Made by a program: the position numbers and the translations under genes. From Torymus aiolomorphi (Eukaryota > Arthropoda > Insecta > Hymenoptera > Torymidae): 64,000 nucleotides of DNA. The notes beneath the pieces are model-generated. The model was not told the DNA's origin and did no database searches. It saw only the letters and a list, made by a program, of their open reading frames with translations. Shown here piece after piece: positions 10,721 through 54,039 of the stretch (positions are counted from its first letter, which is position 1; each line of letters starts with the position of its first letter). Location: positions 160,333,297 to 160,397,296 of the forward strand of contig CM070874.1 in NCBI GenBank assembly GCA_036365515.1, in the 5' to 3' direction.

Positions 10721-11540
10721 GTTGAATATTGTGCTTCTATTCAAAGTATTAAGTATATTTTCGGTTACATTCACAAAGGTAGCGATAGAGCATTTTGTAA
10801 AATCAAAAAAGATTATGATAATAATGATCATTCAGTGTATGATGAAATAATAGATTATATCGACGGCAGATATTTAAGTCCAATGGAGGCAGCATGGTGT
10901 TTACAAGAATTCCCTTTATGTGGGAGAAGTCATACTGTAATACGTCTTGCAGTTCATACAGAAAATCAGCAAAGAATAATTTTCGATGAAAATAAGGAAT
11001 CAAAAGCTCTTAATAAATGTAAAACAACGTTAACAGCATGGTTTGATTTCAATAGAAAAGATAAATTTGCTAATAATATAAAATATGTCAATATTCCACA
11101 ATATTACAAATTTGATTTAACAAAAACGTGGATTAAACGCAAACGAGAAAAAAAAATTACGCTATCGGACGTTTACACATTGTATCTCCTAAGGATTCGA
11201 AAAGATTTTTTTTTAAACTAATTTTAAATCGCGTAAAAGGTGCTACTTCATTTTCTGATTTACGTACACATAAAAATAGAATTTACGAAACATATAAAGA
11301 AACTGCGATTTCTATGGCTTTAATTCAAGATGATTCTGAAATTTTTAATATATTTGAAGAAGCATGTCGTATTATGCTACCTTCCCAACTCCGTAAATTT
11401 TTTGCGTGGTTTATTTTAGCAGAAAACTGTCAAGGACAAAATATATGGTATAAATTAAAAAGTTATTTGTGCGAGGATTTTAAGGTAATAAAGAAAATCA
11501 AGCATTAAATCATATAAATGATATATTATTATTAGAAGAT
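10721..11540 (+). pseudogene. Helitron Rep C-terminal part with the Tyr pair, and linker
   Basis: Coding resumes exactly at the target duplication: VEYCASIQSIKYIFGYIHKG contains two tyrosines four residues apart (Y-I-F-G-Y), the nicking/joining Tyr pair of Helitron Rep. Next come segments typical of Helitron proteins: a YLSPMEAAWCLQEFPL block, a DDSEIFNIFEEACRIMLP block (11314 onward) and CQGQNIWYKLKSYLCED. Breaks occur at 11219 and 11508, where the frame shifts. The tail reaches the helicase frame starting at 11541. Confidence 0.85.
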
Positions 11541-13301: not shown

Positions 13302-16232
13302 TCAGTTTTCAAGGCAACCATCAGTCTTTTTGCCTTGTAGTACGTGAGTCACGTAGCGTGCTATGTCGTCCCAGTTTTGTTTGCTTGATAGCATCAGTGT
13401 CACGACGTTATCCGGTGTGATGTCACCTGTCTTCGTCTGTAGTCTGTGTCTCGCGACTATCCAGCGGGGGCACACGAAAAATGTGTGTTCCGTGTCGTCT
13501 CTATTATGTCCGCAGTACCTGCAGGACGGGGTCGTTACCTTCCCCATCCAATGCAGATACTGGCGGAAGTATCCGTGTCCGGATAGGAACTGGGTCAGGT
13601 AAAAGTTCACCTCCCCAGCTCCTCTCTTATGCCAGAGTTGCACGTCCGTTATGAGGCGTCTCGTCCACTTGGCTTTGTCGCTGTCTTTCCATCGCGTTTG
13701 CCAGGATGTCAGCGTCGTCGTCCGTGCGTCTATGGAGGCCCTCGCTCTTCCCCTTTCTTCGCTGTACTCGTAGATCCTCTTCCGCTCGAGAGCGAGAAGG
13801 TCTACTGGGACAACCCCTGCGATCACTAGTACCGCCACCTCTGAGACGGTGCGGTACGCGCACGCGATTCGCAGCGCTCCCAGTCTTTGTACCGCTGCGA
13901 TCTTTTTGCGGTACTTCTCTATTCGCGTCGCGTCCGCCCATATCTCGGCCCGATAAAGGAGCATCGAGTTGGTCACTGTCATAAGCAGTCGTCGCACACT
14001 CGGTCTCGGTCCCTTCGTATTTGCCATGAGGCGTGCGAGGGCGGCGGTCTTTAACGCCGCTCTCTCAGCGACGCCACGTATGTCCGACCAGAAGGTCATC
14101 CTCGTATCCAGGGTCACCCCCAGATATTTGGCGGACCGTCCAGGATGCACAACGGACGTCCCCACCGTCATGGGTATCGTCGTGTCTATCCGTTTCCTAG
14201 TTAGATATAGTAACTCCGTCTTTTCATGGCCAGCTGTAGTTCCCGACTTTGCATCCATTCGTCCACCCGTCTCGTGGCTTGGGTCAGCCTCATCTGAGCC
14301 AGTCGTGTATCCTTGGTCGTAGCCGATAAGATAGACCCCCGGCGGCATCGGAAGATCCAACACCTCATCGTAACCTACGTTCCAAATATCGGGGCCAAGG
14401 ATCGAGCCCTGCGCTACTCCCGCCGTCATTTTTCTTTTCTTGACTCCAGTCTGCGTCCCGTACGTAATGTAACGGTCTCGTAGATAGTCCTTGAGGATTC
14501 GGAGAAGGTATGGGGGCAGCGGGAAAGCGTTGGAGAATGCACGCACGATGTCCGTCCACCTCACCGAGTTGAAAGCGTTTCGTACGTCGAGTGTTGCCAT
14601 GAGCACTATTGTCCTGTTCTTGTGGGGTCTAGTCTGTGCTCTATCAAAGGAGTCGATCATTTTTTGGATCGCCCCTATCGTCGACCGTCCTTGTCTGAAA
14701 CCGTACTGTCTGTCGTTCAGGCCGCCAGCGTCCCGAACCGCCTGTTGGATTCGCGGTCTCAGGAGCATTTCGAAGAGCTTGCCAAGTGTATTCAGCAAGC
14801 TCAGCGGTCTGTAGGATGACGGCGAGTCCGGGTCCCCAACCTTTCCTTTATCAATGAGGATCAGCCGCGCCGTCTTCCAATCTTTGCTGAACACGCCCTC
14901 CGCCAGGCATGTATTATATAGGTTCAGGAGTATCCCCGGGCGTCGTTTTGCAACAATCCCGAGGATTTCCGCTGGGGTACCGTCCGGACCTGGTGCCTTC
15001 CCCGCCGAGAGCTGTGCGACAGCCAAGCTGAGCTCACCCCGGGTGAACTCCTGCACCTCGTCGTCGCCAGTATCGTCGCCCCCCGACCCTTGTTCAAAGT
15101 GTGTAGGGAAGAGTCCGTCAATGATTCTGTCCATCGTTTCTTCGTCCCTGACTACCGGTGGATTGTTGCCTCCCAGGTTGCGGGTGACGATCTTGTAACC
15201 CGCTCCCCGAGGGTCTGAGTCCACCTCGTTAATCAGTTTGGTCCAACTTTCCTTTTTACTGTCATTGATAGCGTGCCTCAGTTCTTTGCGCGCTACCCGG
15301 TACTCCTCCGAGTGGGCCATCGCGTCCGCTCTGTCGCGGGCGCGCTGGGCCCTCCGTCGGAGCCGTAGGCATTTGCGTCGGAGGCGCGCGATATTTTCGG
15401 TCCACCAGTACACCGGTTCTTTGTCACGTCTCGTCCGTTTTCTTGGCATAGAGGCGTCACAGAGCCTTCTCAAGAGCCCCGACGTTTCCTCTGTTAGCTT
15501 TTCAGCCTTTTCCCTACCACCGATGCTGCGAGCCATTTGTCCGGTCCGGTTCCCTGTCCGCTGTGCCGTCAGTTTGTCAACGTCTGGTTTTTTCATGTTC
15601 CATCCCGCGGGAGTTGGGGCGGTCCCTGTTCTGTTCTGTGCTTTGTCGGTCACTCCGAAGATGATGTACTGGTGGTCGCTGGCCGTGTAGCCCTCGAACA
15701 CCCGCCACCCCTCGACACTTCGGAGAAGTCCAGTCGTCACAAAGGTCACATCTGGGATGGATGCGCCATAGCCGGGTCTCCTGTACGTTGTCGCCTGTCC
15801 CACGTTTGCTACTGTTAGGTCTAGCCTCGCGGCCATTTCCAACGTCGTTATGCCCCACTCAATGGCCCTGGCGTTAACATCCCCCGCGAAGATAACGGGG
15901 CCGGGGATGACCCTAAGCGCGTCCTCGAGGGCCGCCACCTTTCGTCCGAACTCCGCGGCGCTACAGTTCGGAGTGAGATACACGCTGACATACGTCACAT
16001 TAGACACCCGAGCTCAGACGTAGTCCTCGCCCCTCCCTTGGCTTGTGATACGCGACCTGGCCCGCCCCCGGAACCACAGCGCCGCAGAACGGGAGGTATT
16101 AACGAGCCAAGTCGGGCTGTCTCTGTCTCTGTACGGCTCGCTAATCATTATAACGTCCGCGTTCATCTCCTCGGCAAGCTGGGGCAGTAAGGCATGAGCC
16201 AGGCTGCTGCCGTTCAAGTTGCCTTGGAGCAC
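13302..16232 (-). pseudogene. R1-clade ORF2: endonuclease and reverse transcriptase
   Basis: Reading from 16232: an apurinic-type endonuclease (NLNGSS, MISEPYRD, FAGDVNARAIEW, then TASDHQYIIF with catalytic Asp-His), linker, RT fingers (GKAPGPDGTPAEI), motif A (LDVRNAFNSV), a motif-B-like AGVAQGSILGP block, thumb (KYLGVTLDTRMTF) and a C-terminal CCHC (CRYCGHNRDDTEHTFFVC). Two disabling changes are visible. At 16014 a TGG seen in the second copy is TGA. Around 14310-14330 the stretch that should hold the YxDD catalytic motif is deleted and the following ~25 residues are frameshifted. The enzyme would be inactive. Confidence 0.88.
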
Positions 16233-16245
16233 TGTCGTCGTCTTG

Positions 16246-16813
16246 TTAAGTGCGAACGGTCATCTGTCTCGCTCTTGCCTCCGTCAGCGCTGTTTTGAAT
16301 GCGGTGCAGAGCGCCGTGCCCGGAACGTGCGCTGCCCCTCCGCCTTCCTGTGATGGGTACAGGAAACAGAGGGGAGCACCCGTGCAGGCCCCAGCCCTGT
16401 GTCCATTTTTTCCACACTTCCAACAGCAGTCGCTTCTGTCCGGTCCTTTACAGTTTGTACGGTAATGGCCATAGCCGAGACACTTGTAGCATCTCGACAC
16501 CATCAGTCGGATCCTCACTCGGCAGCTGACAAACCCTATCTTTATACGTCCCGTCTCGAGTAGCCGTGTCGCGTCTCGGTCTCCGAGCTCGCAGATAGCC
16601 ATCTTCTGTCCTCGGCTGTTTGGCCCGAGAACCGAGACCCGTCTATCCGCGCCCGGGTTCAGTACTTCGTCTAGTGCGATTCGTACTTCATTAGTATCTG
16701 TAAGGCAGTCCAGGTCCAGTATCTCCAGGGTCACCTTTCGGATCATGTCCTTGATTGTTCCCTGTTCGCCTAGCATCTCCAGGAGGCGTCCACTCATGTT
16801 TCCGTGAGTTCTT
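16246..16813 (-). pseudogene. R1-clade ORF1 (gag), zinc-knuckle half
   Basis: Minus-strand frame with three Cys/His clusters: CYKCLGYGHYRTNC, CCWKCGKNGHRAGAC and a CFL segment, the nucleic-acid-binding knuckles of R1-clade ORF1 proteins. Similarity to the second copy (20282-20838) begins exactly at the solo LTR edge. The first residues of the open frame (from 16836) are LTR-derived and not part of the gene. ORF2 begins about 14 bp downstream of the ORF1 end. Confidence 0.85.
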
Positions 16814-17667
16814 TGTGACGTACACGAACAGCTCATGGTATACGCATCGATTCACATTTCCCCATTCATAAACACGAGAGCGAAAAATCAACAAACACGA
16901 TGCATATTTGTGTACAAACATACGATCGCGTGCGCCAGAGAAAATCTTACTCACTCATTCACACAGCGCCTCTGACGTCAGAGTATAAACAAAAATATTG
17001 TCATGTGCAAGAGAGAAGACCAGACGATCGTCTGGTATATAAAGGGCTCCGATTCTCGGAATCGGCACGCACTTGTGTCCGAGCTCTCGCCTATTCAGGA
17101 TACCGATAAGCATTGCGCTTAGGTAACTGAAGCTGGCCACTCCTTTGCGCTCGTAAAAACTTATGTCAAATAATTCATTTTGAGTATATCAATAAACATA
17201 CCTATAATTCTAGATTTTGATTAATGATTTTTTTTTTCTTCTTCAAATAAACTCTCTCGATAACAACCGAATCCTAACCTACCTACCTCCCACGGCACGA
17301 TAGTCGGCCCTCTGCGCCGATTATTTACCCGGCTCCTCTCTTCTCACACGGCACGGTAGTTGGCCCTCTGCGCCGACTACTTACCCGTATCACCTAAGCA
17401 GCACGGTCGCAGCCACTCAGCGCTAACGACTTACCTTCACCTACCACCTCTCTGTATCGACGGCACGGACTCCGGCACATTGCGCGCCGGTATCTAACCC
17501 TGAGATCGGGGCTACTCCCATCCCGATTGTATGCTCGAGTCCAGTACACGAACTCTTAAAAAATTGTTAATAACTACCAAGTAACGACATCTAGTTTCAT
17601 ACAAGTTAACTCAATTATTAAGGTATAGATTAAAATCTGAGAGCTGTCATTACTTCGGTACGTCACA
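16814..17667 (+). repeat. Solo LTR of the same gypsy family, plus orientation
   Basis: Begins tgtgacg, ends cgtcaca, and aligns in reverse orientation to the LTRs at 2214-3026 and 9909-10720, with divergence concentrated at both ends. It is flanked by tctt (16810-16813) and gctt (17668-17671), a 4-bp duplication with one later change. Comparison with the uninterrupted R1-clade copy at 20270-20290 shows the empty site. A solo LTR arises by recombination between the two LTRs of a former full element. It carries the CRE palindrome at 16970-16983 and TATATAAAG at 17036-17044. Confidence 0.9.
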
Positions 17668-19627: not shown

Positions 19628-20089
<462 letters not shown>

Positions 20090-20838
20090 TCCAAACTGCA
20101 AGGCCTCTAAACAACGGGGCGGCGTAGTGCTAATCGTGCCCAAAGACGGCAAGACCTTCGCGGACGTAGTGCAGACTCTACGTACGGTTGACACCTCTGA
20201 TAACAACCTCCAAATCAAAGGAGTCACAAAGACGAAGGGCGGCGCCGCACTAGTACGCACCAAAGGAGATGGAAGCACTCACGGAAACCTGAGTGGACGT
20301 CTCCTGGAGATGCTAGGCGAACAGGGGACAATCAAGGAAATGACCCGAAAGGTGACCCTGAAGATACTGGACCTGGACTGCCTTACAGACACTGATGAGG
20401 TACGAATCGCACTAGACGGAGTACTGAACCCGGGCGCGGATAGACGGGTCTCGGTCCTCGGGCCAAACAGCCGAGTAGAAGATGGCTATCTGCGAGCTCG
20501 GAGACCGAGACGCGACACGGCTACTCGAGACGGGACGTATAAAGATAGGGTTTGTCAGCTGCCGAGTGAGGACCCGACTGATGGTGCCGAGATGCTACAA
20601 GTGTCTCGGCTATGGCCATTACCGTACAAACTGTAAAGGACCGGACAGACGCGACTGCTGTTGGAAGTGTGGAAAAAATGGACACAGGGCTGGGGCCTGC
20701 ACGGGTGCTCCCCTCTGTTTCCTGTGCTCATCACAGGAAGGCGGAGGGGCAGCGCACGTTCCGAGCACGGCGCTCTGCACTGCATTCAAAACAGCGCTGA
20801 CGGAGGCAAGAGCGAGACAGATGACTGTTCGCACTTAA
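20090..20838 (+). pseudogene. R1-clade ORF1 (gag) fragment, second copy
   Basis: Two overlapping frames: 20127-20636 (GGVVxxVPKDGKTFA-type start, then KTKGGAALVRTKGDG, then GRLLEMLGEQGTIKEM) and 20482-20838 with the zinc knuckles CYKCLGYGHYRTNC and CCWKCGKNGHRAGAC. A frameshift at about 20478 separates them. The N-terminal ~170 residues present in the first copy are absent here. Confidence 0.83.
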
Positions 20839-20851
20839 CAAGACGACGACA

Positions 20852-22637
20852 GTGCTCCAAGGCAACTTGAACGGCAGTAGCCTGGCTCATGCCTTACTGC
20901 CCCAGCTTGCCGAGGAGATGAACGCGGACGTTATAATGATTAGCGAGCCGTACAGAGACAGAGACTGCCCGACTTGGCTCGTTAATACCTCCCGTCCTTC
21001 GGCGCTGTGGTTCCGGGGGCGGGCCAGGTCGCGTATCACAAGCCAAGGGAGGGGCGAGGAATACGTCTGGGCTCGGGTGTCTGATGTGACGTATGTCAGC
21101 GTGTATCTCACTCCGTACTGTAGCGCCGCGGAGTTCGAACGAAAGGTGGCGGCCCTCGTGGACGCGCTTAGGGACATCCCCGGCCCCGTTATCTTCGCGG
21201 GGGATGTTAACGCCAGGGCCATTGAGTGGGACATCACGACGACGAACAAACGTGGACGGCTGCTGTTGGAAATGGCCGCGAGGCTAGACCTAACAGTAGC
21301 AAACGTGGGACAGGCGACAACGTACAGGAGACCCGGCTATGGCGCATCCATCCCAGACGTGACCTTTGTGACGACTGGACTTCTCCGAAGTGTCGAGGGG
21401 TGGCCGGTGTTCGAGGGCTACACGGCCAGCGACCACCAGTACATCATCTTCGGAGTGACCGACAAAACACAGAACAGAACAGGGACCGCCCCAACTCCCG
21501 CGGGATGGAACATGAAAAAACTAGACGTTGACAAACTGACGGCACAGCTGGACAGGGAACCGGACCCGCGGCGATCCCTCGCGGCATCGGTGGTAGGGAA
21601 AAGGCTGAAAAGCTAACAGAGGAAACGTCGGGGCTCTTGAGACGGCTCTGTGACGCCTCTGTGCCAAGAAAACGGACGAGACGTGACAAAGAACCGGTGT
21701 ACTGGTGGACCGAAAATATCGCGCGCCTCCGACGCAAATGCCTACGGCACCGACGGAGGGCCCAGCGCGCCCTGGACAGAGCGGACGCGATGGCCCACTC
21801 GGAGGAGTACCGGGTAGCGCGCAAAGAACTGAGGCACGCTATCAATGACTGTAAAAAGGAAAATTGGACCAAACTGATAAAGGTGGACTCAAACCCTTGG
21901 GGAGCGGGTTACAAGATCGTCACCCGCAACCTGGGAGGCAACAATCCATCGGTAGTCAGGGACGAAGAAACGATGGACAGAATCATTGACGGACTCTTCC
22001 CTACACACTTTGAACAAGGGTCGGGGGGCGACGATACTGGCGACGACGAGGTGCAGGAGTTCACCCGGGGTGAGCTCGGCTTGGCTGTCGCGCAGCTCTC
22101 GGCGGGGAAGGCACCAGGTCCGGACGGTATCCCAGCGGAAATCTTCGGGATTGTTGCAAAACGACGCCCGGGGATACTCCTGAACCTATATAATACATGC
22201 CTGGCGGAGGGCGTGTTCAGCAAAGATTGGAAGACGGCGCGGCTGATCCTCATTGATAAAGGAAAGGTTGGGGACCCGGACTCGCCGTCATCCTACAGAC
22301 CGCTGAGCTTGCTGAATACACTTGGAAAGCTCTTCGAAATGCTCCTGAGACCGCGAATCCAACAGGCGGTTCGGGACGCTGGCGGCCTGAACGACAGACA
22401 GCACGGTTTCAGACAAGGACGGTCGACGATAGGGGCGATCCAAAAAGTGATCGACTCCTTTGATAGAGCACAGACTAGACCCCACAAGAACAGGCCCATA
22501 GTGCTCGTGGCAACACTCGACGTACGAAACGCTTTCAACTCAGTGAGTTGGACGGACATCGTGCGGGCATTCTCCGACGCTTTCCCGCTGCCTCCATACC
22601 TTCTCCGAATCCTCAAGGACTATCTACGAGACCGATT
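20852..22637 (+). pseudogene. R1-clade ORF2 fragment: endonuclease and part of RT, second copy
   Basis: The endonuclease frame 20852-21616 is open and contains NLNGSS, MISEPYRD, FAGDVNARAIEW and TASDHQYIIF, plus an uninterrupted Trp where the first copy has TGA. A frameshift near 21570 closes it; the RT part continues at 21637-22637 with YWWTENIARLRRKCL, GKAPGPDGIPAEI and motif A LDVRNAFNSV. The sequence ends before the YxDD motif. Cannot make a functional enzyme. Confidence 0.87.
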
Positions 22638-22667
22638 ATCATAAAAAAGAATAGTCCGGTAGTAGTC

Positions 22668-27931: not shown

Positions 27932-28690
27932 TACTTGAATTAATTTCCGCCTTTTCTGCTTAGAAAAGGAATATTTATTTTTTGTTAAATAATTAATTAC
28001 ATGTCATTCAAAGTACTGTCCATCGTTAGCTATCACCATTCCCCATCTGTGGGGTAAAGCATGAATGCCATCACGAAAGAAGCCCTCGTCTTTGGATTGA
28101 ATCCATTTGTTAAGCCATTTTTCGATATCTTCGTAAGATTGGAAGTGCTCGTCAGCAAGGCTATGTGCGATCGATCTAAATAAGTGATAATCTGAAGGCG
28201 CAATATTTGGTGAATACGGCGGGTGTGGTAAGATTTAGCAACATGCGGCCGAGCATTGTCATGCAGAAAAATCACTTTATCATGTCTTTAGCTCATTCTG
28301 GTCGTTTTTCTTTCAAAGTTAGGCTCAAACTCATCAATTGTTCTCGATATCGTTCGCCAGTGACTGTTTCATCCGGTTTTAGAAGTTCATAGTAGACGAC
28401 ACCTTTCTGATCCCACCAAATGCAGAGCATAACCTTTGAACTATGGATGTCACGCTTTGGCGTTGATGTTGACGTTGATGGTAATAGTTTGCCTGGTTTA
28501 GCCCACACTTTTTTGCGTTTAGGATTGTTAAAATAAATCCACTTTTCGTCGCCAGTCACCATTCGATGCAAAAATTCTTTTTTTTTGTGTCTTTGAAGAA
28601 GCATTTCGCAGGTCATTAAACGTCTTTCCACGTCTTTTTCTTTCAATAAGTGTGGCATCCAATTTCCTTGCTTATGAATATATCCTATTG
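27932..28690 (-). mobile_element. mariner, truncated, in a LINE fragment
   Basis: A TA at 27932-27933 is followed by the terminal sequence cttgaattaatttccgcc. The transposase gene lies on the minus strand and the other end is missing beyond about 28690. Confidence 0.8.
28033..28690 (-). pseudogene. mariner transposase fragment
   Basis: Minus-strand frame 28658-28293 contains HRMVTGDEKWIYFNNPKR, with the first catalytic Asp intact, and LCIWWDQKGVVYYELLKPDE. Frame 28275-28033 contains FLHDNARPHVAKS with the second Asp, after which the frame is lost; the third Asp region is seen only out of frame near 28195-28215. The N-terminal DNA-binding part is absent. It is a different mariner lineage from the one at 6633-7898, judging by terminal sequence and residue differences. 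Confidence 0.85.
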
Positions 28691-28929
28691 ACTTTATTTC
28701 TAATTTATCTAAAGTTACAAAGTTACAGTGGGTAATGATCGTTAAATGGATTCGTTATTTTAAATGAATTAAGGGGATCAGACACCTTTCCAATTTTCAT
28801 CATAAAATGACCTGAAAAAAATTAATTTTCATAATTAGAAATATTTAGAAGTAATATCCTAAAAATATATTCAATTTGTGGTAAAATGAAATCCAAAAAA
28901 AATTTTTAATCGATTTTGGACAATCCAAG

Positions 28930-30492
28930 ATGGAGGATAGTGGGCTGCCAGGAGGCAGTTCTCCCGATATATACTATCGATGTCACATCACGCAAGTGGT
29001 TAAAACGGTAGTCTGTATATGGTGTTGTAACATTTTTCATAAAAGTGACTTTAATAGGAAAAAAAATGTAAGATACATAAACAGTGTGTTAGTTGTGTGT
29101 GATGAACATGATTTGAGCATAACCTCAAATCAAGATCCCACACGTTCTGTGTTACTAAAACTACAAGAAGAACTGTAAGCCAAAACTAAAGCGATTGAGA
29201 AACTTAGTAAAAACTATAGGAAAATAGAATCAGAGTACAGTAAACTTAAAGTCAACTATGAAGGCCTCCTTCAAGAAAACAGAATGCAAGTTGATGAGCT
29301 GGATGAGACTACACGCGAAGACAAGGGCAGTGATAAAGTAAGTGCACTAACAACAGAAAACCAGCTGCTTAGGGAACTAAATACTGAATTGAAATATAAA
29401 AATTTGCTTTTAAATGAAATTCTAACGAAAGAAAAGGAACGACCGAGTAAATACAAGGAAACATATGCTGATATAATGGCAAAAAAGATACACATACCAC
29501 AATCCAAAAAAGTGCCGAAAATTGTAGTGACAAGAAAAGACAAAGAAGAGAAATCTGTGATAAAGGAAAAAGTATTCCACTATCTACTTAAAGAAAAATC
29601 AATCCAAACGAAAAAAATTGATATGAAAAGTAAAGATGTAATTTCAATAACACGCATGAACGAGGAAAGTGCCAAGACAGCAAAAAGATTATTAGACACC
29701 AAGCTCAACCACCTCTACAAGGTCGAAGAAGAACAGCTTAGTAAGCTCGTCATAAGAATAACTGGCATTGAAAATGTATTCAAGTCTGATCTAAAAGCAA
29801 TCGAAAATGACATAAACCAAAGAAATTTTTATAAAAAGGGTAACATATTACACGTAGCTGGCAATGACAAAAGCAGTAAAGTAACGGTCATCATGGAAAT
29901 AACGGGTGAAATGCACAAACATATTAAAAAAAATATAGACAGATTATTCGTTGGTTATCAGAATTGCAAAGTTTACGATATAATAAATGTGAAACCATGT
30001 TATAAGTGTGGTATATTGGGTCATAATGGCCAAAGGTGTAAGAACAGCCCAACCTGTTTAAAATGTGCGGGAACGCATCTAACAAAAACGTGCACATCAG
30101 AGAAACAGTGCTGCGTCAGCTGTAGCTTCTCAAATAAGACATTTGGCAACGACTATAATACTGATCATGTTACCACTGACAGACAAGAATGTAAAATTTT
30201 GAATGCTAAGGTAAACAAGGCTATGGACACTACTGAATATATAATAAAACCTGACTTACCGAGATACCTCGGTAAGGTAGATAACTTCAAGAAACGGACG
30301 CAAGAGTTAACTAATTCACCAACTACATTACAAACTCAGGTGGGCGAAACCGAATTAATACTGGCAAAATCCAGGCTTGGGAGTTCGTCCTCACTTACAT
30401 CGGTAACAACAAGATCTAGATTCTACTCACAACAAGACCTCACCCTCAGTTCGCCTACCAATAATACGCAAGATGGATCAACACACCTTTAA
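28930..30492 (+). pseudogene. LINE ORF1: PHD-like finger, coiled coil, CCHC knuckles
   Basis: From ATG at 28930 one frame runs to 30492 with a single in-frame TAA at 29176-29178. The N-terminus has a Cys/His cluster (VCIWCCNIFHKSDF, later VVCDEHD) reminiscent of PHD-type fingers in some LINE ORF1 proteins. A coiled coil follows (29180-29500), then a basic central region, then two or three zinc knuckles (CYKCGILGHNGQRC, CLKCAGTHLTKTC, CCVSCSF). ORF1 proteins bind element RNA and chaperone reverse transcription. The stop makes this copy defective, or it may be a recent substitution or sequencing error. Confidence 0.8.
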
Positions 30493-30497
30493 TTTAA

Positions 30498-32828
30498 GTG
30501 ATAAAAAAGTATAAATTTTATACCCTATATGTTAATATAAGAAGTTTAAGCAAAAATCTAGAAAAGCTTGAATTACTAATAATTAGAACTAATACTAAAC
30601 CGAATATAATAATATGCACGGAAACGTGGAAGCTCGAAAATACTGGTCTTTTCAATATTCCAGGTTACAACCTGCATTATAACGAAGGTAATATAAACAG
30701 AGCAGATGGTGTTTCCTTGTATATTAGAGAAAATATCATAGAAAATACCAAAACTATAGTTATTGATAATCTAAATATTATTTGTACGGATATCCTTATA
30801 AACAATAATGAAACCTTTCGAACTTCGACATCTTATAGATCTCATAGCATTAAGAAACTAGAATACATTCAATCAATTAAAAAATATATTGAAAACAACA
30901 AAAATACTAAAAATCATATGATCGTTGGCGATTTTAACATAGACATTATGAAAGACGATAATGCTACCGCGGAATTTTTAAATAATTTCACTGAAAAAGA
31001 ATATATCCCATGCTTTTTAGGTATAACTAGACCGGCAGAAGGCGGCTATGGTGGTACGTGTATTGACAATTTTTTCTTCAAATCAAATTCTATTGCTCCA
31101 AAAGCATATAAGCTCTGCACCAACGAAATTAGTGATCACTACCCTTTAATTGTTGCCTTAGATCTTATACTAAAACAAGAGAATAATAAACAAACTAGGA
31201 TTGTGAACTACAATAAATTAAGAAATAAAGCTACTTTGACAGACTGGAATCCTATTTTGTTAATACAGGATCCAAATGAAGCAGTCAATTTACTAATAAG
31301 TAAGATCTAAAATTGTATAAATTATGCCTCTTCCAATAAAACAACAAAAAAGAGAGATAGGGGCAGTGTCCCAAGGAAAGATTGGATCTCACCAGCATTA
31401 ATTGCATCGTGTAAAAAAAAGAAATGCTTTATAAGTTATATAAAATGAATCAAAATTGTACAGTTCTAAAACAAGACTACAAAAAATATACAAAAGTATT
31501 GGATAGAGTGATAAAAGAAGCTAAACTAAAGTACGAAAGAGATAAGATAGAAAAAAGTAGAAATGACCCAAAACAACGATGGGAAATCATTAATAACAAG
31601 CTAGGAAAAACAAAGAAAGACAATAAGAAAATTCAGCATATTTGTATAAATAAACAAAAAATCTCTGACAAAGAAACCATTGCAAACCACATGAACTCAT
31701 ATTTTTGTGAAGTTGGTGCTACCTTAAGTAAAAACATCATACAACCTGTGAATGGTGGTACAAAAGTAATTGCAAGAAATCCAAAAACGATCTTTACCTT
31801 TTCGGATCTTGCAAAGGCTTTTGACACTGTCAACCATAAAATCCTAATAGAAAAACTTAATCGTCATAAGAGATAAAACTCTAGACTTAATGTATAGCTA
31901 TCTTTCTAATAGAAGTCAAATAGTGAAAATAGACAATAAAAGAAATACTGAACAAATAATAGAAACAGGAGTTCCGCAAGGAACAATACTTGGCCCACTG
32001 TTATTTATACTATACATTAATGACCTGTTGGTAGATATGCCGAGTAATACAGTTCTTTCTTGTGCGGATGACACTGCTGTCATATCGGGTGACAACATGT
32101 GGTCACGGGCACAGGATAAAATGAACAGTTTTTTAGACAAAATAGCGAATTGGCTAGCGGTGAACAGACTGTCTTTAAATACGAGCAAAACTGTCATTAT
32201 GACGTTAGGAAATTATTGTGACAGTGTGCCAAATAGAATTGAAATTGAAATACATAAGCAGGAAATTAAAAGAGTCTCAACGTACAAGTATCTTGGAATA
32301 GTTTTTGATTATAACATGAAATGGAACCAACATATTAAATATATCATAAATAAAACTAAATATCTAATTTTTATCTTTGCCAAAGTAAAAAATTATATGG
32401 ATATAAAATCATTAATGATTATGTATTATGCATTCTTTCATAGTCATATAAATTATGGTATTATTGCATGGGAAGGGGCCTATAAAAATAACATGAATCT
32501 ATTGCAAAATATACAATCAAGAATACTAAAAATTATACAGAAGAACTCCGACGTGAGTAATACACCGTTAAATATAAGACAGGTCTTTACATTAGAGTCT
32601 TTAGTTTACCATTACTCAGACCTCAAAGAAATTTATGAAAAAAGCACATCTGTAACCCGATCTAAAAGTATTCAATTGCCAAAAGTACAAAAGGCTGTTA
32701 GTGATAAAAACAGTTTTAGGGTAGCAATTAAAACCTTTAATTGCTTACCTAATGATCTAAAAAAGCTCTATTGCAAAAGTGTTAATAGGAAACATGTACT
32801 AAAAAATAAACTAAAAAAATATATATAA
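30498..32828 (+). pseudogene. LINE ORF2: endonuclease and RT, internally deleted
   Basis: Endonuclease (30498-31310): LYVNIRSLSKNL, IIICTETWKL, MIVGDFNIDIM and SDHYPLIVAL, containing the catalytic Asn, Glu, Asp and His residues of the AP-type nuclease. A frameshift follows. 31424-31876 holds the linker, but jumps from KTIFTF straight to DLAKAFDTVNHK (RT motif A), so the RT fingers are deleted. After another frameshift at about 31877, 31890-32828 has VPQGTILGPLLFILYINDL (motif B), CADDTAVIS (motif C, Cys in place of the usual Tyr or Phe), KYLGIVFDYNMKW and the thumb. Not functional. Confidence 0.85.
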
Positions 32829-33099
32829 TAAACAAATGTATACATATTGTTTTTCTTGCGTTAAGTTTTGAAAATTCTATTTGACAATATTAAATGTTTA
32901 AGGTTTAAATATTTAATACCTAGTATATAAGCTGTAGTGTATAAGTATAGTCTTAAGTATTCATGTACCAGCCCTTGTACAGGTAGTTTATATCTACCAC
33001 TGAGGACTTTACTCTATGTAATTTTGTTCTGGTTTAATAAATAAAATAAAAATAAAAAATAAATAAATTAACCAAATATATGGCCATTTAAAAATTTTT

Positions 33100-33364
33100 G
33101 CTCTGCCGTCGACTCCAGATTCAGGAACTACATATATTTTAATGGGGGAGGTCCTAAAATTTTGGTATTTTATATGACTATTGACTGAAGAGTTGTACGT
33201 ATTCAATTTATTTGATTAAATAATTTTTTACGGTCAAAAATTATTTAATCAAATAAATTGTATGCATACAACTCTTCAGTCAATAGACATATAAAATACC
33301 AAAATTTTAGAACCTCTCCCATTAAAATATATGCAGTTCCTGAATCTGGAGTCGACGGCAGATC
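33100..33364. mobile_element. Palindromic MITE, ~125-bp arms
   Basis: ctgccgtcgactccagattc near 33104 pairs with gaatctggagtcgacggcag near 33342-33361; arms match almost throughout, with the centre near 33232. No ORF. Confidence 0.8.
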
Positions 33365-34640
33365 TCAAAATTTTACATTATGTAGAAAACAGCTTTAAAG
33401 ATAAAATTACTAAAATACTTCTTTATTTCTTTTTCTTTATTTCTTAACTCCATCTCTGCCCTGAAATACAAAAAAATATTATTTTTAGCTCAAAATATTT
33501 TACATTTAGAACAAATATTCTGGTACTTTAGTATACGATCTATCAGACTTGTAAGCTATGAGCACGCGTAACAGTCATATCTACATCAGTCAGTCAAGTT
33601 TGTTAAGTGGTTTAACATGTAGATCCTTTGGTGCTTTTAAATCCATATGTTTTTAATAATCTTTATCACATATATTAGATTCTTATACATATACTGAGGT
33701 AAATAATGTGTTGAGAAATCCAAAATCCCTCATGCATGTTATGAAGCCAGTATCGCCATAGCCAAATGCTTGAAAAAAATGTTTATAGCAGCAAGATTCC
33801 ATATTGATCTTCTTTTAATGTCTCATAACGTGAATTTCTTTACTTGTCCTTCATTATTCTTTTTCACATATAATATTATTACTTAATAAAGAGAATACGA
33901 CTGATACATATTTATTGCAGTGCATAACTGTTTTTACTTCAGAAAATAAAATATCAATTATATCATAGTGAGATTCAGGCAATGGCTGATAATGGTAGCT
34001 TTCGGACAGAAGCGAAGATTCCATAACATTTTTCTGCACAATAGCATATCTTTCGCTTTCTTTAAAAGTTGATTTAAATCTGTACACTAAATGTTTTTTG
34101 TAATAGTCAATTTAGACTTAATTTTTCTTTAGTATCAATCCCTGTTATTTTGAGTATGAAGTTTCCAACAAAAGTTCAAGTACTAAAAGCTATTTCTAAA
34201 ACTTTAATTCAACTATCACACGTATTATTCAAACACTTTAAAAAACTGATTATAATACCTTTACGTATTATAATACACTAAATGTTTACTCCCAAATCCG
34301 TTGGAAACAATGAAAATTAAGAACAACACTTTGTATAGAAAAGGTGCTGATGCTGATATCACAGAGTTTATATGAAATGACAGCTGTGCATGTTTACATT
34401 GCTTGCGGACTTTTAAATAGGTTAAAATCAGCTCTGTTACAATAAAGAAGTGAGCTGTGAGCCTGTGAGAGGCTGTCGTTGATAAGTCAGGTTGTTACGG
34501 TGCCAACTTAACTGCTATATAAGTTTTAAATTCAAATTTTTATTTTTGTCAAAAATACCGTCCATAAATTATATTATTTATTTTTTATCTTTAGATTAAT
34601 GTTTGAAATATTATTTTTGGATCTTTTAAAGTATATATAG
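33365..34640. other. AT-rich stretch of unknown origin
   Basis: About 1.3 kb without a recognisable repeat or transposon gene, less biased than its surroundings. It contains one 77-residue minus-strand frame (listed separately). This is the best candidate in the window for ordinary single-copy DNA. Confidence 0.4.
33854..34103 (-). CDS. Possible exon or orphan ORF, 77 residues
   Basis: Minus-strand ORF from ATG at 34087 to TAA at 33854, with even amino-acid use (SLLSESYHYQPLPESHYDI, then TVMHCNKYVSVVF). On the minus strand a pyrimidine-poor acatttag precedes the frame by a few bases and could be a weak splice acceptor, which would make this a terminal exon. I recognise no family. It may be chance. 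Confidence 0.2.
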
Positions 34641-34790
34641 ATATTTAATAATTGTTATGACGCTAATGTGCATAAAGGCAAAAAACAATCTCATGTCCTT
34701 TTTATTAAAGGCCCAAATCGACAAAAAGTTGTCAAAAATAAGAGATTATAACAATAAGTCAGACACTTATTGCAGTCTAAAAAAATTCAC

Positions 34791-34857
34791 AGGTATTTCG
34801 TCCAGGCTACTAGATTGGACTCATCAGTGATGATCTAGTAGCCGTCATCAGACACCT
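34791..34857 (-). ncRNA. Type III hammerhead ribozyme, copy 1
   Basis: Minus strand, 5' to 3': stem III strand AGGTGT, cleavage base C (34851), stem I TGATGA with TCATCA (6 perfect pairs) around loop cggctactaga, core CTGATGA (34827-34821), stem II GTCC with GGAC around a 13-nt loop, core GAAA (34799-34796), stem III return TACCT. Every invariant core base is present. One stem III pair is G-U. Predicted cleavage is after GUC at 34851. Confidence 0.9.
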
Positions 34858-35280
34858 AGCGCTCCATCGTAGCGGCCAAAGGTTTATAGACTGAGCCGCT
34901 CTTTTCACTAGTGGAAAAGAGAGGCTCCATCTGTCGGTGCGTTACTAACACAAGCACCGCGTTAAATATAAATTTAAGTGAAGCTAATTGCCTAGTGTAA
35001 TATTTAATAATTGTTATGACGCTAATGTGCATAAAGGCAAAAAACAATCTCATGTCCTTTTTATTAAAGGCCCAAATCGAAAAAAAGTTGTCAAAAATAA
35101 GAGATTATAACAATAAGTCAGACACTTATTGCAGTCTAAAAAAATTCACAGGTGTTTCGTCCATCGTTATATTTAACGCGGTACTTGTGTTAGTAACGCA
35201 CCGACAGATGGGGCCTCTCTTTTCCACTAGTGAAAAGAGCGGCTCAGTCTATAAACCTTTGGCCGCTACGATGGAGCGCT

Positions 35281-35347
35281 AGGTGTCTAATGACGGCTAC
35301 TAGATCATCACTGATGAGTCCAATCTAGTAGCCTGGACGAAACACCT
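35281..35347 (+). ncRNA. Type III hammerhead ribozyme, copy 2
   Basis: Stem III AGGTGT (35281-35286) pairs with ACACCT (35342-35347); cleavage after C35287; stem I TAATGA/TCATCA has one A-C mismatch compared with copy 1; core CTGATGA 35311-35317; stem II GTCC (35318-35321)/GGAC (35335-35338); core GAAA 35339-35342. All conserved core positions are present. Confidence 0.9.
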
Positions 35348-35525
35348 GTGAATTTTTTTAGACTGCAATAAGTGTCTGACTTATTGTTATAATCTCTTAT
35401 TTTTGACAACTTTTTTTCGATTTGGGCCTTTAATAAAAAGGACATGAGATTGTTTTTTGCCTTTATGCACATTAGCGTCATAACAATTATTAAATATTAC
35501 ACTAGGCAATTAGCTTCACTTAAAT

Positions 35526-35796
35526 TTATATATATATATATAGATATGTAGAGTGAGAATTTAAAATATATTAAGAATAGTGAAATGAAAAAAAAAAATT
35601 AGTAGAAATAATATATGATTATATACATATGTATACAAGGGGAAAAATGTAATTTGAACAAAAAACAAATGAAAAGCTTTATCAGTGTTTTGTGTATATT
35701 CTTAAAACAAAAATAGATAATGCATTAAAACTAATTCTGCAAGTGTTTTTTTAGTAAAATATGTAATAAAAAAAATTGATTTTTCGTCATTTTAAA
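35526..35796. other. AT-rich non-coding stretch
   Basis: Short TA run and A/T-rich sequence; no gene or clear repeat apart from the possible element end at 35797-35814. Confidence 0.5.
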
Positions 35797-35865
35797 GGTG
35801 TTCGACCCCCTTAATATTTATACTAGCAAGGTTTACCTCACTCTCTGACGCTCGCTCGCTTAACG

Positions 35866-36230
35866 GGGTTCCATAGTCCTACCATTACCGACCGTGCAAT
35901 TCACACAGTTTCAAGCTGATTAAAAATAAAATACTTCGAATCACATAAAATCAACTTCTCTGTTTTTTAACGTTCTATCACCCAGTCAAAGTTTGGAGTC
36001 GAAATATCAAGTCGTTTTTGTAAAAACTTCGAACAAAGCGAAATTTAATTTCGTTCAATGTTTTTGAAAAAACGATTTGATATTTCGTCTCCAAACTTTG
36101 ACTGGATGGTAGAACGTTAAAAAACACAGACCAGTGTTCTTTTGATTTGTTGTGATTCGATGTATTTTATTTTTAATCAGCTTGAAACTGTGTGCATTGC
36201 TCGGTAGGTAATGGTACGACTATGGTGCCC
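35866..36230. mobile_element. Palindromic MITE, ~170-bp arms
   Basis: ccatagtcctaccattaccg near 35871 pairs with cggtaggtaatggtacgact near 36202. The arms also share cagtttcaagctgattaaaa and gtcaaagtttggag; centre near 36050. No ORF. Confidence 0.8.
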
Positions 36231-36631
36231 TCTTAATATTTTTTTATTTTTCTTAATTAATATTTGTAGAAATTTGTAAGTTTAATGTGTTATAATAATA
36301 ATTAATAATAATAATTAATTAATATAATAACATTTTCTATTTTTAAGCTTTTATAATTCAATCTTCATCATTCAAACCTGATTATTCTACTATGGATGTT
36401 GTTGTTAAGTATTTACTTTTGACTTTAATATTCGACGTCAATAATAAATATTAAATAATAAATTTTTATTTAATACTGTCTACATAATTACTTGAAACTT
36501 AAGATGTCAGACGAGTCTCTTGAGTCTTGATTTTTTCAAAAAATTTACTTAATAACAGTTATATATATATATATATATTATTATTAGTATATATTGATCA
36601 CATTATAAAATATCGATTAGTTTGATCGAAA
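36231..36631. other. AT-rich non-coding stretch
   Basis: Runs of A/T with attaataataat repeats and a short (TA)n at 36561-36578. Nothing recognisable. Confidence 0.5.
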
Positions 36632-48662: not shown

Positions 48663-49677
48663 TTAAATTATGATTCCAGCATTGCGAAGTTCGCTGAGAA
48701 TATAACGGATTTCATCAGAGTTAGTTCTTATTCCCATATTTTGCTCAGCAATGAATACTCGTAAACGATCAACTAATTTGTTAGGATCATCCCAGATGTC
48801 GAGTTCATATGCAGTTGTAGCAGCTGCAACTTCTTCTTCGTCAATAATCCATTTTTCTCGTTGGTATTTCGAACGAATACAGTTATTACCTTCAAAGCGC
48901 TCCCATGCTTCTTGATTATGAATGATTTTGGGTGAATATTCATTAGTTGAGGAATCTCATATATCTTCACTAGAATGATCAGCTTCGTAACAACTATCAG
49001 TCTTGTTAGTAGTTAGAAGGTGGGAGTCAATTCGAGTATCTGGTTTAACAGTTGCAAACTTCTTTAGAGGATTGACTATTGGTTCAAATATCTTTTTGGC
49101 TACCACTGCATTAGTTTGCACAAACCTTTTACATTTCCCTCTTGCATTTTCTGCTTCGTTAAAAATATCTTCTCGAGATAATGTCGAGTCACTTTTTATA
49201 AACGACTTTTCGAACATTGGAGCAATAAAATTATAAAATTTTTTACTGTTTAGTTTTCGAATCGGCTTATTCATGCAATAGTGCTTTTTGTGAGCGCTTG
49301 AAACTTCCATAATCATGCGATAATTATCCAAACCATTTGAATTGATAAGACTTTCATCCGGAAGTTTTTTGAATAGTAATTGTAATAATCCTGCAGACAA
49401 ACGATAGTTCCGATCCTTTACCTGTACAAAGTCCCCTTCAAACTTTATTGGTATTTCCGATCATAAGTGAATTTCCTCGCTTGTAAACACCATAAATATT
49501 ATCTAGATATCTCCTACAATTTCCATTTAATTTCAATACATATTTCTTGACTAGTTTTTCAAATTTATAATTATTAGAACTAGGACTGTTTTTACGGCCA
49601 GGTCTCATATTAGATAGTTCAATTTCAGAAGTTTCCATATCATTAGCTGTATCGAAAAATTCAGCGCTTTTTGTCAT
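48663..49677 (-). pseudogene. Multicopy insect protein family (DUF8207-like), frameshifted
   Basis: Minus strand. N-terminal frame starts at or just inside the satellite and runs to 49438: a Ser/Asn-rich linker, then YKFEKLVKKYVLKLNGNCRR and NIYGVYKRGNSLMIGN. A one-base frameshift near 49440 leads to frame 49400-48957 (SAGLLQLLFKKLPDESLIN, then NYRMIMEVSSAHKKHY). Another near 48960 leads to the C-terminal segment ending at 48663 (WERFEGNNCIRSKYQREKW, then WDDPNKLVDRLRVF and a final SELRNAG block). The pattern of a 'YG..K..GN..MIGN' strand followed by 'L..LL.K..P' and 'Y..I...S.AH' resembles DUF8207 proteins found in many copies in arthropod and cnidarian genomes, probably mobile-element-derived. 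From memory, unverified. Function unknown. Confidence 0.5.
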
Positions 49678-52600
49678 AGAGTGGCATCTTTTAAACAGTA
49701 ACACCTTTTTTATGTCGTAGAGTGGCATCATTTAAACAGTAACACCTTTTTATGTCATAGAGTGACACCTTTTAAACAGTAACACCTTCTTTATATCATA
49801 GAGTGACACCTTTTAAACAGTAATACCTTTTTTCTGTCATAGAGTGACACCTTCTAAACAGTAACACATTTTTTATGTCATAGAGTGACACCTTTTATAC
49901 AGTAACAACTTTTTCATGTCATAGAGTGACACCTTTTATACAGTAACATCTTTTTTATGTCATAGAGGGTTATCTTTTAAACAGTAACACATTTTTTATG
50001 TCATAGAGTGACACCTTTGAAACAGTAACACCTTTTTCATGTCATAGAGTGACACCTTTTATACAGTAACACCTTTTTTATGTCATAGAGTGACATCTTT
50101 TCCATGTCATAGAGTGACAACTTTTAAACAGTAACAGCTTTTTAAGTCATAGAGTGACACCTTTTAAACAGTAACACCTTTTTTATGTCATAGGGTGGCA
50201 CCTTTTAAACAGTAAGACCTTCTTTATGGCATAGAGTGACACCTTTTATGCAGTAACACCTTTTTTATGTCATAGAGTGACACCTTTTTCATGTCATAGA
50301 GTGACAACTTTTAAACAGTAACACCTTCTTTATGGCATAGAGTGACACCTTTTATACAGTAACACCTTTCTTATGTCATAGAGTGACACCTTCTAAACAG
50401 TAACACCTTCTTTATGTCATAGAGTGACACCTTTTATACAGTAACACCATTTTTATGTCATAGAGTGACACCTTTTTCATGTCATAGAGTGACAACTTTT
50501 AAACAGTAACACCTTCTTTATGGCATAGAGTGACACCTTTTATACAGTAACACCTTTCTTATGTCATAGAGTGACACCTTCTAAACAGTAACACCTTCTT
50601 TATGTCATAGAGTGACATCTTTTAAACAGTAACACCTTCTTTATGTCATAGAGTGGAATTTTTTAAACAGTAACACCTTTTTTATGTCATAGAGTGACAC
50701 CTTCTAAACAGTAACACCTTTTTTATGTCATGGTGTGACATCTTTTAAACAGTAACACCTTTTTTATGTCATAAAGTGGCATTTTTAAATAGTAACACCT
50801 TTTTTATGTAATAGAGTGATTCCTTCTAAACAGTAACACCTTCTTTATGTCATAGAGTGACATCTTTTATACAATAACACCATTTTTATGTCATAGAGTG
50901 ACACCTTTTTCATGTCATAGAGTGACACGTTTTTCATGTCATAAAGTGACACCTTTTAAACAGTAACACCATCTTATGTCATAGAGAGACACCTTTTAGA
51001 CAGTATCACCTTTTTTATGTCATAGAGTGACATCTTTTAAACAGTAACTTCTTGTTTATGTCATAGAGTGGCATCTTTTAAACAGTAACACCTTTTCTAT
51101 GTCATATAGTGCACCTTTTAAACAATAACACCTTTTTTATGTCATAGAGTGACATCTTTTAAACAGTAACACCTTTTCATGTCATAGAGTGACACCTTTT
51201 TCATGTCATAGCATGACACCTTTTAAACAGTAACACCTTCTTTATGTCATAGAGTGACACGTTTTTCGTGTCATAGAGTGACAGCTTTTAAACAGTAACA
51301 CCTTTTTTATGCCATAGAGTGACACCTTTTAAACAGTAACACCTTCTTTATGGCATAGAGTGACACCTTTTAGACTGTAACACCTTTTTGATGTCATAGA
51401 GTGACACCTTTTAAACAGTAACACCTTTTTTATTTCATAGAGTGGCATCTTTTAAACAGTAACACCTTTTTTATGTCGTAGAGTGGCATCTTTCAAACAG
51501 TAACACCTTTTTTATGACATAGAGTGACACCTTTTAAACAGTAACACCTTTTTTATGTCATAGAGTGACACCTTTTAAACAGTAACACCTTCTTTATGGC
51601 ATAGAGTGACACCTTTTAGACTGTAACACCTTTTTGATGTCATAGAGTGACACCTTTTAAACAGTAACACCTTTTTTATTTCATAGAGTGTCATCTTTTA
51701 AACAGTAACAGCTTTTTTATTTCATATAGTGACACCTTTGAAACAGTAACACCTTTTTCATGTCATAGAGTGACACCTTTTATACAGTAACACCTTTCTT
51801 ATGTCATAGGGTGACACCTTTATCATGTCATAGAGTGACAACTATTAAACAGTAACACCTTTTTTATGTCATAGAGGTGCATCTTTTAAATAGTAACACC
51901 TTTTATATATCATAGAGTGACACCTTTTTCATGTCATAGAGTGACACCTTTTGGACAGTAGCACCTTTTTTATGTCATAGAGTGGCATCTTTTAAACAGT
52001 AACACCTTTTTTATGTCACAGAGTCACACCTTTTGAACAGTAACACCTTTTTTATGTCATAGAGTGACACCTTTTAAACAGTAACACCTTTTCTATGTCA
52101 TAGAGTGACACCTTTTAAACAGTGAAACCTTTTTTATTTCATAGAGTGTAATCTTTTAAATAGTAACACCTTTTTTATGTCGTAGAGTGGCATCTTTTAA
52201 ACAGTAACAACTTTTTTTAGACATAGAGTGCACCTTTTAAACAGTAACACCTTTTTATGTCGTAGAGTGGCATCTTTTTCATGTCATAGAGTGACAACTT
52301 TTAAACAGTAACACCTTTTTTATGTCATAGAGTGACACCTTTTAAACAGTAACACCTTCTTTATGGCATAGAGTGACACCTTTTATACTGTAACACCTTT
52401 TTTATGTCATAGAGTAACAGTTTTTTCATGTCATAGAGTGACAACTTTTAAACAGTAACACCTTTTTATGTCATAGAGTGACACCTTTTAAACAGTAACA
52501 CCTTCTTTATGGCATAGAGTGACACCTTTTATACTGTAACACCTTTTTTATGTCATAGAGTGACATCTTTTATACAGTAACACCTTTTTTATGTCATAGA

Positions 52601-54039
52601 GTCACACCCTTTTCATGTCATCGAGTGACAACTGTTAACAGTAACACCTTTTTTATGTCATAGAGTGACACCTTTTAAACAGAAACACCTTCTTTATGGC
52701 ATAGAGTGACACCTTTTATACTGTAACACCTTTTTTATGTCATAGAGTGACAGTTTTTTCATGTCATAGAGTGACAACTTTTAAACAGTAACACCTTTTT
52801 ATGTCATAGAGTGACACCTTTTAAACAGTAGCACCTTTTTTATGTCATAGAGTAACACCTTCTAAACAGGACCGCCTTTTTTATGTCATAGAGTGACACC
52901 TTTTATACAGTAACACCTTTTTTATGTCATAGAGTGACACCTGTTATACAGTAACACCTTTTCTATGTCATAGAGTGACACCTTTTTCATGTCATAGAAT
53001 GACACCTTTTAAACAGTAACCCTTTTTTTATGTCATAGAGTGACACGTTTTTCATGTCATAGAGGGACAACTTTTAAACAGTAACACCTTTTTTATGTCA
53101 TAGAGTGACACCTTTTAATCAGTAACACCTTCTTTATGGCATAGAGTGACACCTTCTAGACTGTAACACCTTCTTTATGTCATAGAGTGACACCTTTTAA
53201 ACAGTAACACCTTTTTTATGTCATAGAGTGACACGTTTTTCATGTCATAGAGGGACAACTTTTAAACAGTAACACCTTTTTTATGTCATAGGGTGACACC
53301 TTTATCATGTCATAGAGTGACAACTATTAAACAGTAACACCTTTTTTATGTCATAGAGGTGCATCTTTTAAACAGTAACACCTTTTATATATCATAGAGT
53401 GACAACTTTTTCATGTCATAGAGTGACACCTTTTAGACAGTAGCACCTTTTTTATGTCATAGAGTTTATCTTTTAAACAGTAACACCTTTTTTATGTCAC
53501 AGAGTGACACCTTTTAAACAGTAACACCTTTTTTATGTCATAGAGTGACACCTTTTAAACAGTAACACCTTTTTTATGTCATAGAGTGACACCTTTTAAA
53601 CAGTGAAACCTTTTTTATTTCATAGAGTGTAATCTTTTAAATAGTAACACCTTTTCTATGACGTAGAGTGGCATCTTTTAAACAGTAACAACTTTTTTTA
53701 GACATAGAGTGCACCTTTTAAACAGTAACACCTTCTTATGTCGTAGAGTGGCATCTTTTTCATGTCATAGAGTGACAACTTTTAAACAGTAACACCTTTT
53801 TTATGTCATAGAGTGACACCTTTTAAACAGTAACACCTTCTTTATGACATAGAGTGACACCTTTTATACAGTAACACCTTCTTTATGTCATAGAGTGACA
53901 TCTTTTTCATGTCATAGAGTGGCATCTTTTAAACAGTAACACCTTTTTTATGTCATAGAGTGACACCTTTTAAACAGTAACACCTTTTTTATGTAATAAA
54001 GTGACACCTTTTAAACAGTAACACCTTTTTTATGTCATA

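Follow-up and report, generated by a model that had tools for sequence, protein, structure and literature searches.

We find that a 359-nt repeat unit with a type III hammerhead ribozyme motif was inserted, in tandem and inverted copies, into an insect genome, and that it is probably a non-autonomous, non-LTR retrozyme-like element that moves by the cycle proposed below. The insertion lies in a 64-kb window, by which we mean the whole stretch of DNA analysed. With its target-site duplications it covers positions 34632-35547, a larger feature than the one delimited in the first-pass annotation of this DNA. That annotation had suggested a non-autonomous ribozyme retroelement, which is still the best reading, and the target-site duplication supports its insertion as a unit.

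A tandem and inverted array between 13-bp duplications

Performing repeat analysis, we recovered both the 359-bp direct spacing and the inverted copies that had been noticed at first sight. The array consists of 1.46 minus-strand units joined head-to-head to about one plus-strand unit (Table 1). Copy 2 is broken inside the hammerhead at 35163, in the 3′ strand of stem II. The unit match of copy 3 stops at 35531, and its final three bases are part of the TA run. Both edges of the insertion overlap an ATAT of the target DNA and are thus ambiguous by a few bases. Copies 1 and 3 form inverted arms of 331 bp that are 98% alike (5 differences over 331 aligned bases), and copies 1 and 2 differ at 2 of 164 bases. 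Of the five differences that separate copies 1 and 3, three are A/G on the ribozyme strand (34641-35534); editing of double-stranded RNA is one possible source of such differences, besides mutation.

The same 13-mer, TATATATAGATAT, stands on either side of the array, and we take it to be a target-site duplication. On the plus strand of the window it occurs at these two places only, and on the minus strand once, at 25282. AT-matched pairs drawn outside the minisatellite shared a 13-mer by chance in 25 of 20000 draws, and a second AT-matched draw, in which only 13-mers with a G or C were counted, gave 33 of 20000. Random 40-bp pairs lying 800-1000 bp apart shared a 13-mer in 2274 of 20000 cases over the whole window, where the large minisatellite raises the count; with the minisatellite excluded, the figure was 4 of 20000. 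Since the 13-bp duplication brackets the entire array, the tandem and the inverted copies came in together.

The unit has a GC content of 38.2%. Its longest stop-free run, read around the circle, is 82 codons, and there is no long ORF. Simple patterns found no RNA polymerase III A or B box in the unit. Outside the array the window showed no copy of the unit; the remaining visible BLAST matches are short and mostly AT-rich. Exact pieces of the unit gave no match in viral contigs or in prokaryotic genome contigs, and a distant blastn search of phage records with the unit gave none either.

As a circle, the ribozyme strand is predicted to fold at -97.8 kcal/mol, compared with -73.5 ± 5.3 kcal/mol for its shuffles (none of 200 as low). 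The opposite strand also beats its shuffles (-92.2 versus -66.7 ± 4.9 kcal/mol; again none of 200 as low), and strong folding is thus a property of both strands. The predicted circle of the ribozyme strand pairs 62% of its bases, which is under the value of "above 70%" quoted for retrozyme RNAs in a passage of PMC4918200.

Table 1. Positions of the insertion, its parts and the neighbouring features in the window.
Feature	Positions	Strand	Basis or remark
Left target-site duplication, TATATATAGATAT	34632-34644	+	identical 13-mer at 35535
Right target-site duplication, TATATATAGATAT	35535-35547	+	identical 13-mer at 34632
Whole insertion	34645-35534	.	repeat structure and junctions
Copy 1, complete 359-nt unit	34641-34999	-	last four bases overlap the left duplication
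Copy 2, partial unit	35000-35163	-	5′-truncated at the 3′ strand of hammerhead stem II
Copy 3, about one unit	35167-35534	+	repeat structure and junctions
Head-to-head junction	35160-35169	.	TCCA of stem II, then TCGT; plus-orientation unit from 35167
Type III hammerhead, copy 1	34791-34857	-	RF00008, 34.2 bits; own descriptor
Type III hammerhead, copy 3	35281-35347	+	RF00008, 34.6 bits; own descriptor
Loop I, CGGCUACUAGA	35294-35304	+	copy 3; identical in copy 1; complementary to loop II
Loop II, AUCUAGUAGCC	35323-35333	+	copy 3; identical in copy 1
LINE in several frames	29179-32828		zinc-knuckle-like cysteines (by eye; no Pfam match), endonuclease, RVT_1
Endonuclease-RT LINE, two copies in opposite orientation (alike by eye)	13302-16851, 20046-22644
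Near-perfect palindrome, two 146-nt arms	33086-33378		91% complementary, one base apart
Nested inverted repeats, one long palindrome	35860-36236		95-nt and 81-nt arms, 88%
Helitron pieces	813-2087, 11484-13003		Helitron_like_N and PIF1-like helicase domains
Transposase fragments (n = 2)	7230-7760, 28293-28754		Pfam Transposase_1
Minisatellite, >14 kb, to the window end	49668-64000		41-bp unit AGTAACACCTTTT...

Two type III hammerhead motifs with complementary loops

The hammerhead motifs are real, and the core is complete in both copies. Both run in the order GUC, stem I, CUGAUGA, stem II, GAAA, which makes them type III. Each has the GUH triplet, the CUGAnGA and GAAA boxes and three helices, with helix III open. 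Helix III and stem I are 6 bp each; stem II is 4 bp and can be extended to 5. Cleavage is predicted after 34851 on the minus strand for copy 1 and after 35287 on the plus strand for copy 3.

Rfam Hammerhead_3 (RF00008) was the best model for both motifs. In a 1.2-kb stretch the E values were 2.2e-5 for copy 3 and 2.7e-5 for copy 1; across the 64-kb window they were 0.0012 and 0.0014, respectively. In the covariance check proposed in the first-pass annotation, the type III model matches both copies, but at 34.6 and 34.2 bits it stays below its gathering score of 48.5 bits, so that a default Rfam scan lists neither. Our own descriptor found two type III motifs in the 64 kb, at these two sites only, and no further hammerhead of type I or type III. 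As a control, we searched 20 first-order Markov windows of the same composition as the 64-kb window. They contained a single motif of each type when all strengths were counted, and none of type III that equalled those of copies 1 and 3 in strength.

Three proper helices had been described for both copies. The complete core stands, but neither copy is flawless: the defect lies in one helix in copy 1 and in another in copy 3, and the helices quoted were a mix of these two copies. In copy 1 (minus strand) stem I, UGAUGA/UCAUCA, is perfect and stem III has one G.U pair, as this copy reads GAAAU. In copy 3 (plus strand) stem III is perfect and stem I has one A.C mismatch, as this copy reads UAAUGA where UCAUCA would pair. 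There is one complete hammerhead on each strand of the locus, and the opposite polarity of the 359-nt unit is without a hammerhead by our descriptor. A transcript of the tandem, which was expected to be cut to unit-length RNA, would therefore give no unit-length fragment between two cuts at this locus, and that expectation is false here.

With a 5-bp stem II, the motif has two 11-nt loops, CGGCUACUAGA and AUCUAGUAGCC, that can form 10 contiguous Watson-Crick pairs. Only 2 of 200000 composition-shuffled loop pairs reached 10 pairs. The loops could kiss, ordering the active fold, or they could form a hairpin that masks the ribozyme. The two complete copies give no covariation for testing the loop pseudoknot.

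We computed the energies of the competing folds. The lowest-energy form of the 67-mers is a plain hairpin, at -23.2 kcal/mol for copy 1 and -25.1 kcal/mol for copy 3. In comparison, the nested hammerhead reaches -12.2 and -7.7 kcal/mol with a 5-bp stem II, and -10.9 and -6.4 with a 4-bp stem II. A kissing contact is worth about -9.8 kcal/mol for 7 bp and -15.6 for 10 bp, before penalties. The 7-bp contact brings copy 1 near parity with the hairpin, while copy 3 still falls short. Growing transcripts were folded at 16 lengths, at equilibrium and without pseudoknots. At a transcript length of 70 the hairpin probability was 0.85 and 0.87, and it was 1.00 at all ten longer lengths; its dominance arises before GAAA is made. 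At all 16 lengths stem I had a probability of at most 0.10 and stem II of 0.00. The masking hairpin is thus predicted to win at equilibrium. As folding favours the competing hairpin, cleavage may be slow or absent, and we do not claim efficient cleavage for either hammerhead. A switch has reportedly been described for the hammerhead of a plant satellite RNA; the open-access literature searched yielded no paper on it, and our reading does not depend on it.

Ends, central junction and proposed route of integration

At either outer end of the insertion stands a 3′ end of the ribozyme strand. The one on the left falls at unit position 355-359, and the one on the right at 28-34, having crossed the unit boundary. 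ATAT occurs in the 359-nt unit at two places only, starting at 31 and 356; each end sits on one of them, and both ends overlap an ATAT of the target DNA. The right end reaches 28-38 nt past the unit position where the left end stops. The only two ATAT sites are spaced by this same distance, so the offset cannot by itself prove that a Penelope enzyme was at work; microhomology with the target would be enough to account for it, without the enzymology of Penelope-like elements (PLEs). The simplest reading of the ends suggests that both 3′ ends of an opened target paired with the RNA and that both were extended.

The central junction may also bear a trace of copying. Read on the plus strand, copy 2 ends with TCCA (35160-35163) and runs into TCGT, and TCCATCGT sits 62 nt further on in this template, past the 5′ half of the hammerhead. 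It looks as if the reverse transcriptase jumped a structured stretch by means of a 4-nt microhomology and the cDNAs were then joined. Copy 1 runs on into copy 2 at 34999/35000 without any break, which calls for a circular or multimeric template.

The inverted arms could also belong to a DNA element, a foldback element or MITE moved by a transposase, in which the hammerhead-like hairpin would be inherited and non-catalytic. The 331-bp arms at 98% identity, the two long palindromes close by (33086-33378 and 35860-36236) and a motif whose lowest-energy form is a plain hairpin would all suit such an element. We give this explanation a slim chance, since its outer ends should mirror each other and do not, the right end lying 28-38 nt beyond the counterpart of the left. 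A direct 359-nt tandem, an AT-rich 13-bp duplication and microhomology at both ends misfit cut-and-paste transposition, as does a complete hammerhead core.

For the retrozyme-like element, the following cycle may be proposed. A multimeric transcript of a source locus would self-cleave at GUC, and the monomers would be ligated to a circle. A trans-acting reverse transcriptase, of a PLE or a LINE, would open a (TA)n-GATAT target with a cut staggered by 13 bp. The two target 3′ ends would anneal to the two AUAU sites of the RNA, and both would be extended by target-primed reverse transcription. One cDNA would run for 1.46 laps, through the unit boundary unbroken, which needs a circular or multimeric template, and it would jump 62 nt over the structured hammerhead at the TCCA microhomology. 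Its joining to the second cDNA would leave a head-to-head insertion between 13-bp duplications. Pairing of the loops may serve as a switch in this cycle, such that the nascent RNA cuts and the circle is then protected. We infer the order of these steps from the anatomy observed at the locus.

A reverse transcriptase is present in the neighbourhood, contrary to what the first-pass annotation had reported: endonuclease and RVT_1 domains of a LINE lie at 30498-32828, about 1.8 kb from the array. Nothing ties this LINE to the hammerhead element; a LINE may have supplied the reverse transcriptase. Among the best 120 of 1269 matches, its named relatives are in Bracon brevicornis (54% identity), Cotesia typhae (43%) and Callosobruchus chinensis (32%), that is, two braconid wasps and a beetle; closer matches exist here too. 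The two LINE copies in opposite orientation are presumably R1-like. The left one keeps a 903-codon open frame, whose closest relative among the best 120 of 583 matches is 81% identical; named relatives in that set are in Molorchus minor (48%) and Bactrocera tryoni (47%), and closer matches exist. The Transposase_1 fragments we take to be of the mariner type. The palindrome at 33086-33378 looks like a foldback element or MITE. Within the palindrome on the other side, 35986-36103 matches the microRNA precursor models MIR9481 and MIR7504 below their gathering scores, probably owing to the long hairpin. The minisatellite also shows longer periods, e.g. 65, 81, 105 and 123 bp, and the window contains no tRNA.

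Relation to known hammerhead elements

We compared the element with the published systems as passages of the cited papers describe them. Animal retrozymes carry type I hammerheads and give circles of about 170-400 nt with low GC and target-site duplications of >4 bp; their circular RNA is proposed to be primed and copied by the reverse transcriptases of LINEs or PLEs (PMC7229834). The same paper (Cervera and de la Pena 2020) also places similar type I repeats in insects. The element falls within the range that defines metazoan retrozymes in its tandem unit (about 150-450 bp), GC below 50% and lack of coding, and its 13-bp duplication is longer than 4 bp, as theirs are. Like the metazoan non-LTR retrozymes it has a short low-GC unit, no LTR, unbroken tandem copies, a stable predicted circle and one ribozyme polarity, the last being common to all retrozymes described so far according to PMC11721086. 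It departs from them in carrying a type III hammerhead where theirs is type I, in the inverted head-to-head insertion and in a loop complementarity able, as predicted, to mask the ribozyme. In animal circular RNAs the hammerhead is probably blocked by some means other than self-pairing, as a passage of PMC7229834 has it. The likeness to animal retrozymes, hammerhead satellites and Penelope pseudo-LTRs drawn in the first-pass annotation thus applies to lifestyle but not to ribozyme type, as those are type I (PMC7229834, PMC7761336, in the parts cited). The element would work like an animal non-LTR retrozyme but stands outside that family as defined.

The ribozyme itself is closer to that of plant LTR retrozymes (Cervera et al. 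2016, PMC4918200, in the passages cited): both are type III with a 6-bp stem I and a stem II of about 4 bp, dimensions that PMC7936874 gives for type III in general, and in both the predicted fold holds the ribozyme in a blocked conformation. In the plant elements the LTRs carry two type III hammerheads at a distance of about 600-1000 bp, and the duplication is 4 bp long. In contrast, the present element has no LTR arrangement, a unit of 359 nt and a 13-bp duplication.

With PLEs the element shares partial tandem copies and an AT-rich target; extension on both strands and two offset start sites may be common to both. A purified PLE cuts and extends the two strands of its target, with a preference for AT-rich DNA, and genomic PLEs have an optional 30-40 bp tail between two reverse transcription start sites (PMC11167929, in part), beside which the 28-38 nt offset may be set. 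Tandem and inverted copies with a short tail are a PLE's own insertion signature. The insertion could then be a solo pseudo-LTR, the truncated remnant of an autonomous Penelope-like element with a type III ribozyme, and no circular RNA would be involved. We consider this unlikely. The hammerheads of PLEs are minimal type I, without helix III or loop-loop contacts, in the passages of PMC7761336, and ours is type III and has a helix III of 6 bp. At 359 nt the unit comes back to its own start and leaves no space for a long ORF, and a Pfam scan of 19 of the 56 listed ORFs found no GIY-YIG domain at E up to 0.001. The start sites differ too: the studied PLE starts at sites non-homologous to its target (PMC11167929, in part), whereas here they share ATAT with it.

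Type III hammerheads of animals have been described in delta-like RNAs of a toad and termites, in two termite genomes, in Drosophila pseudoobscura and in other dipterans, the dipteran cases being announced as work in preparation (de la Pena et al. 2021, PMC7936874, in part). A passage of PMC6155905 gives a discontinuous type III hammerhead for mammalian Clec2. The termite, toad and Drosophila pseudoobscura motifs share type III with the element, and in them a Watson-Crick pseudoknot links the loop of helix I to that of helix II. The delta-like hammerheads combine a 6-bp stem II with a first stem I of 5 bp; they also show an internal loop, an additional hairpin and a GCCR/YGGC contact of 4 nt. 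In comparison, stem I of the element is 6 bp long and stem II 4-5 bp, and its loops can pair over a run of 10 bases. In the termite genomes the motifs are isolated, while this one sits in a defined insertion. In PMC7936874, as cited, hymenopterans gave no match to the atypical delta-like architecture. The search covered that architecture only; as it was aimed at another form, it does not exclude the one seen here.

A resident LINE or PLE might once have captured, as cDNA, an infectious viroid-like RNA belonging to the insect or to something inside it. A small self-paired ribozyme unit of type III, as in viroid-like RNAs and the termite and toad delta-like agents (PMC7936874, in part), and the lack of a second copy in the 64-kb window would agree with such a capture. 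We hold it to be highly improbable, since zeta-type agents have hammerheads in both polarities and the element in one, its length of 359 is not a multiple of 3 and it has no endless ORF. Zeta-type agents have lengths that are mostly multiples of 3 and ORFs in both senses. The delta-like type III motifs, with their longer helix I and 6-bp helix II, are also unlike the element in the passages of PMC7936874.

A general type III pattern matched 21 viral contigs; our own descriptor found type III in 2 of the 21, with a loop complementarity of 2 bases. We rejected a relation to those hammerheads, as their loops are complementary over only 2 bases. The non-circular hammerhead permutations of PMC10085705, in the part cited, have no bearing on the motif.

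For the retrozyme reading we count the complete core, a window E of about 0.001 and the lack of equal motifs in the Markov windows, together with the 13-bp duplication, ends at the only two ATAT sites, the seamless passage and a 359-nt unit of low GC that has no ORF, a stable circle and a hammerhead in one polarity. Against it we count type III in place of type I, Rfam scores below gathering, one imperfect helix per copy, a folding that favours the hairpin, 62% pairing, no other copy in the 64 kb, an end offset that the ATAT spacing alone would explain and the non-homologous start sites of the studied PLE.

In the open-access literature searched (subscription papers and preprints lie outside that scope) we found no comparable element. 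What is new is in the detail: a type III hammerhead in an animal-type repeat, with 11-nt loops complementary over 10 contiguous bases. A ribozyme type better known from plants and viroid-like RNAs is thereby placed inside a defined insertion in an insect genome. Two questions are touched: the route by which animal retrozymes integrate, and the way in which their circular RNA escapes the ribozyme that it carries. To the first, the locus offers an insertion with intact duplications and two ends that suggest two-sided priming; to the second, a ribozyme whose own loops are predicted to be able to block cutting. Tentatively, and with more doubt than confidence, we raise a further reading, an insect retrozyme lineage with type III hammerheads that would use complementary 11-nt loops as an on/off switch and whose circular RNA would be copied from both target strands at once. 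Kissing loops would be the cutting form, and the collapsed hairpin would protect the ligated circle. If this is true, head-to-head insertions would directly record, in the genome, that circular RNA was reverse-transcribed from two sides by target priming.
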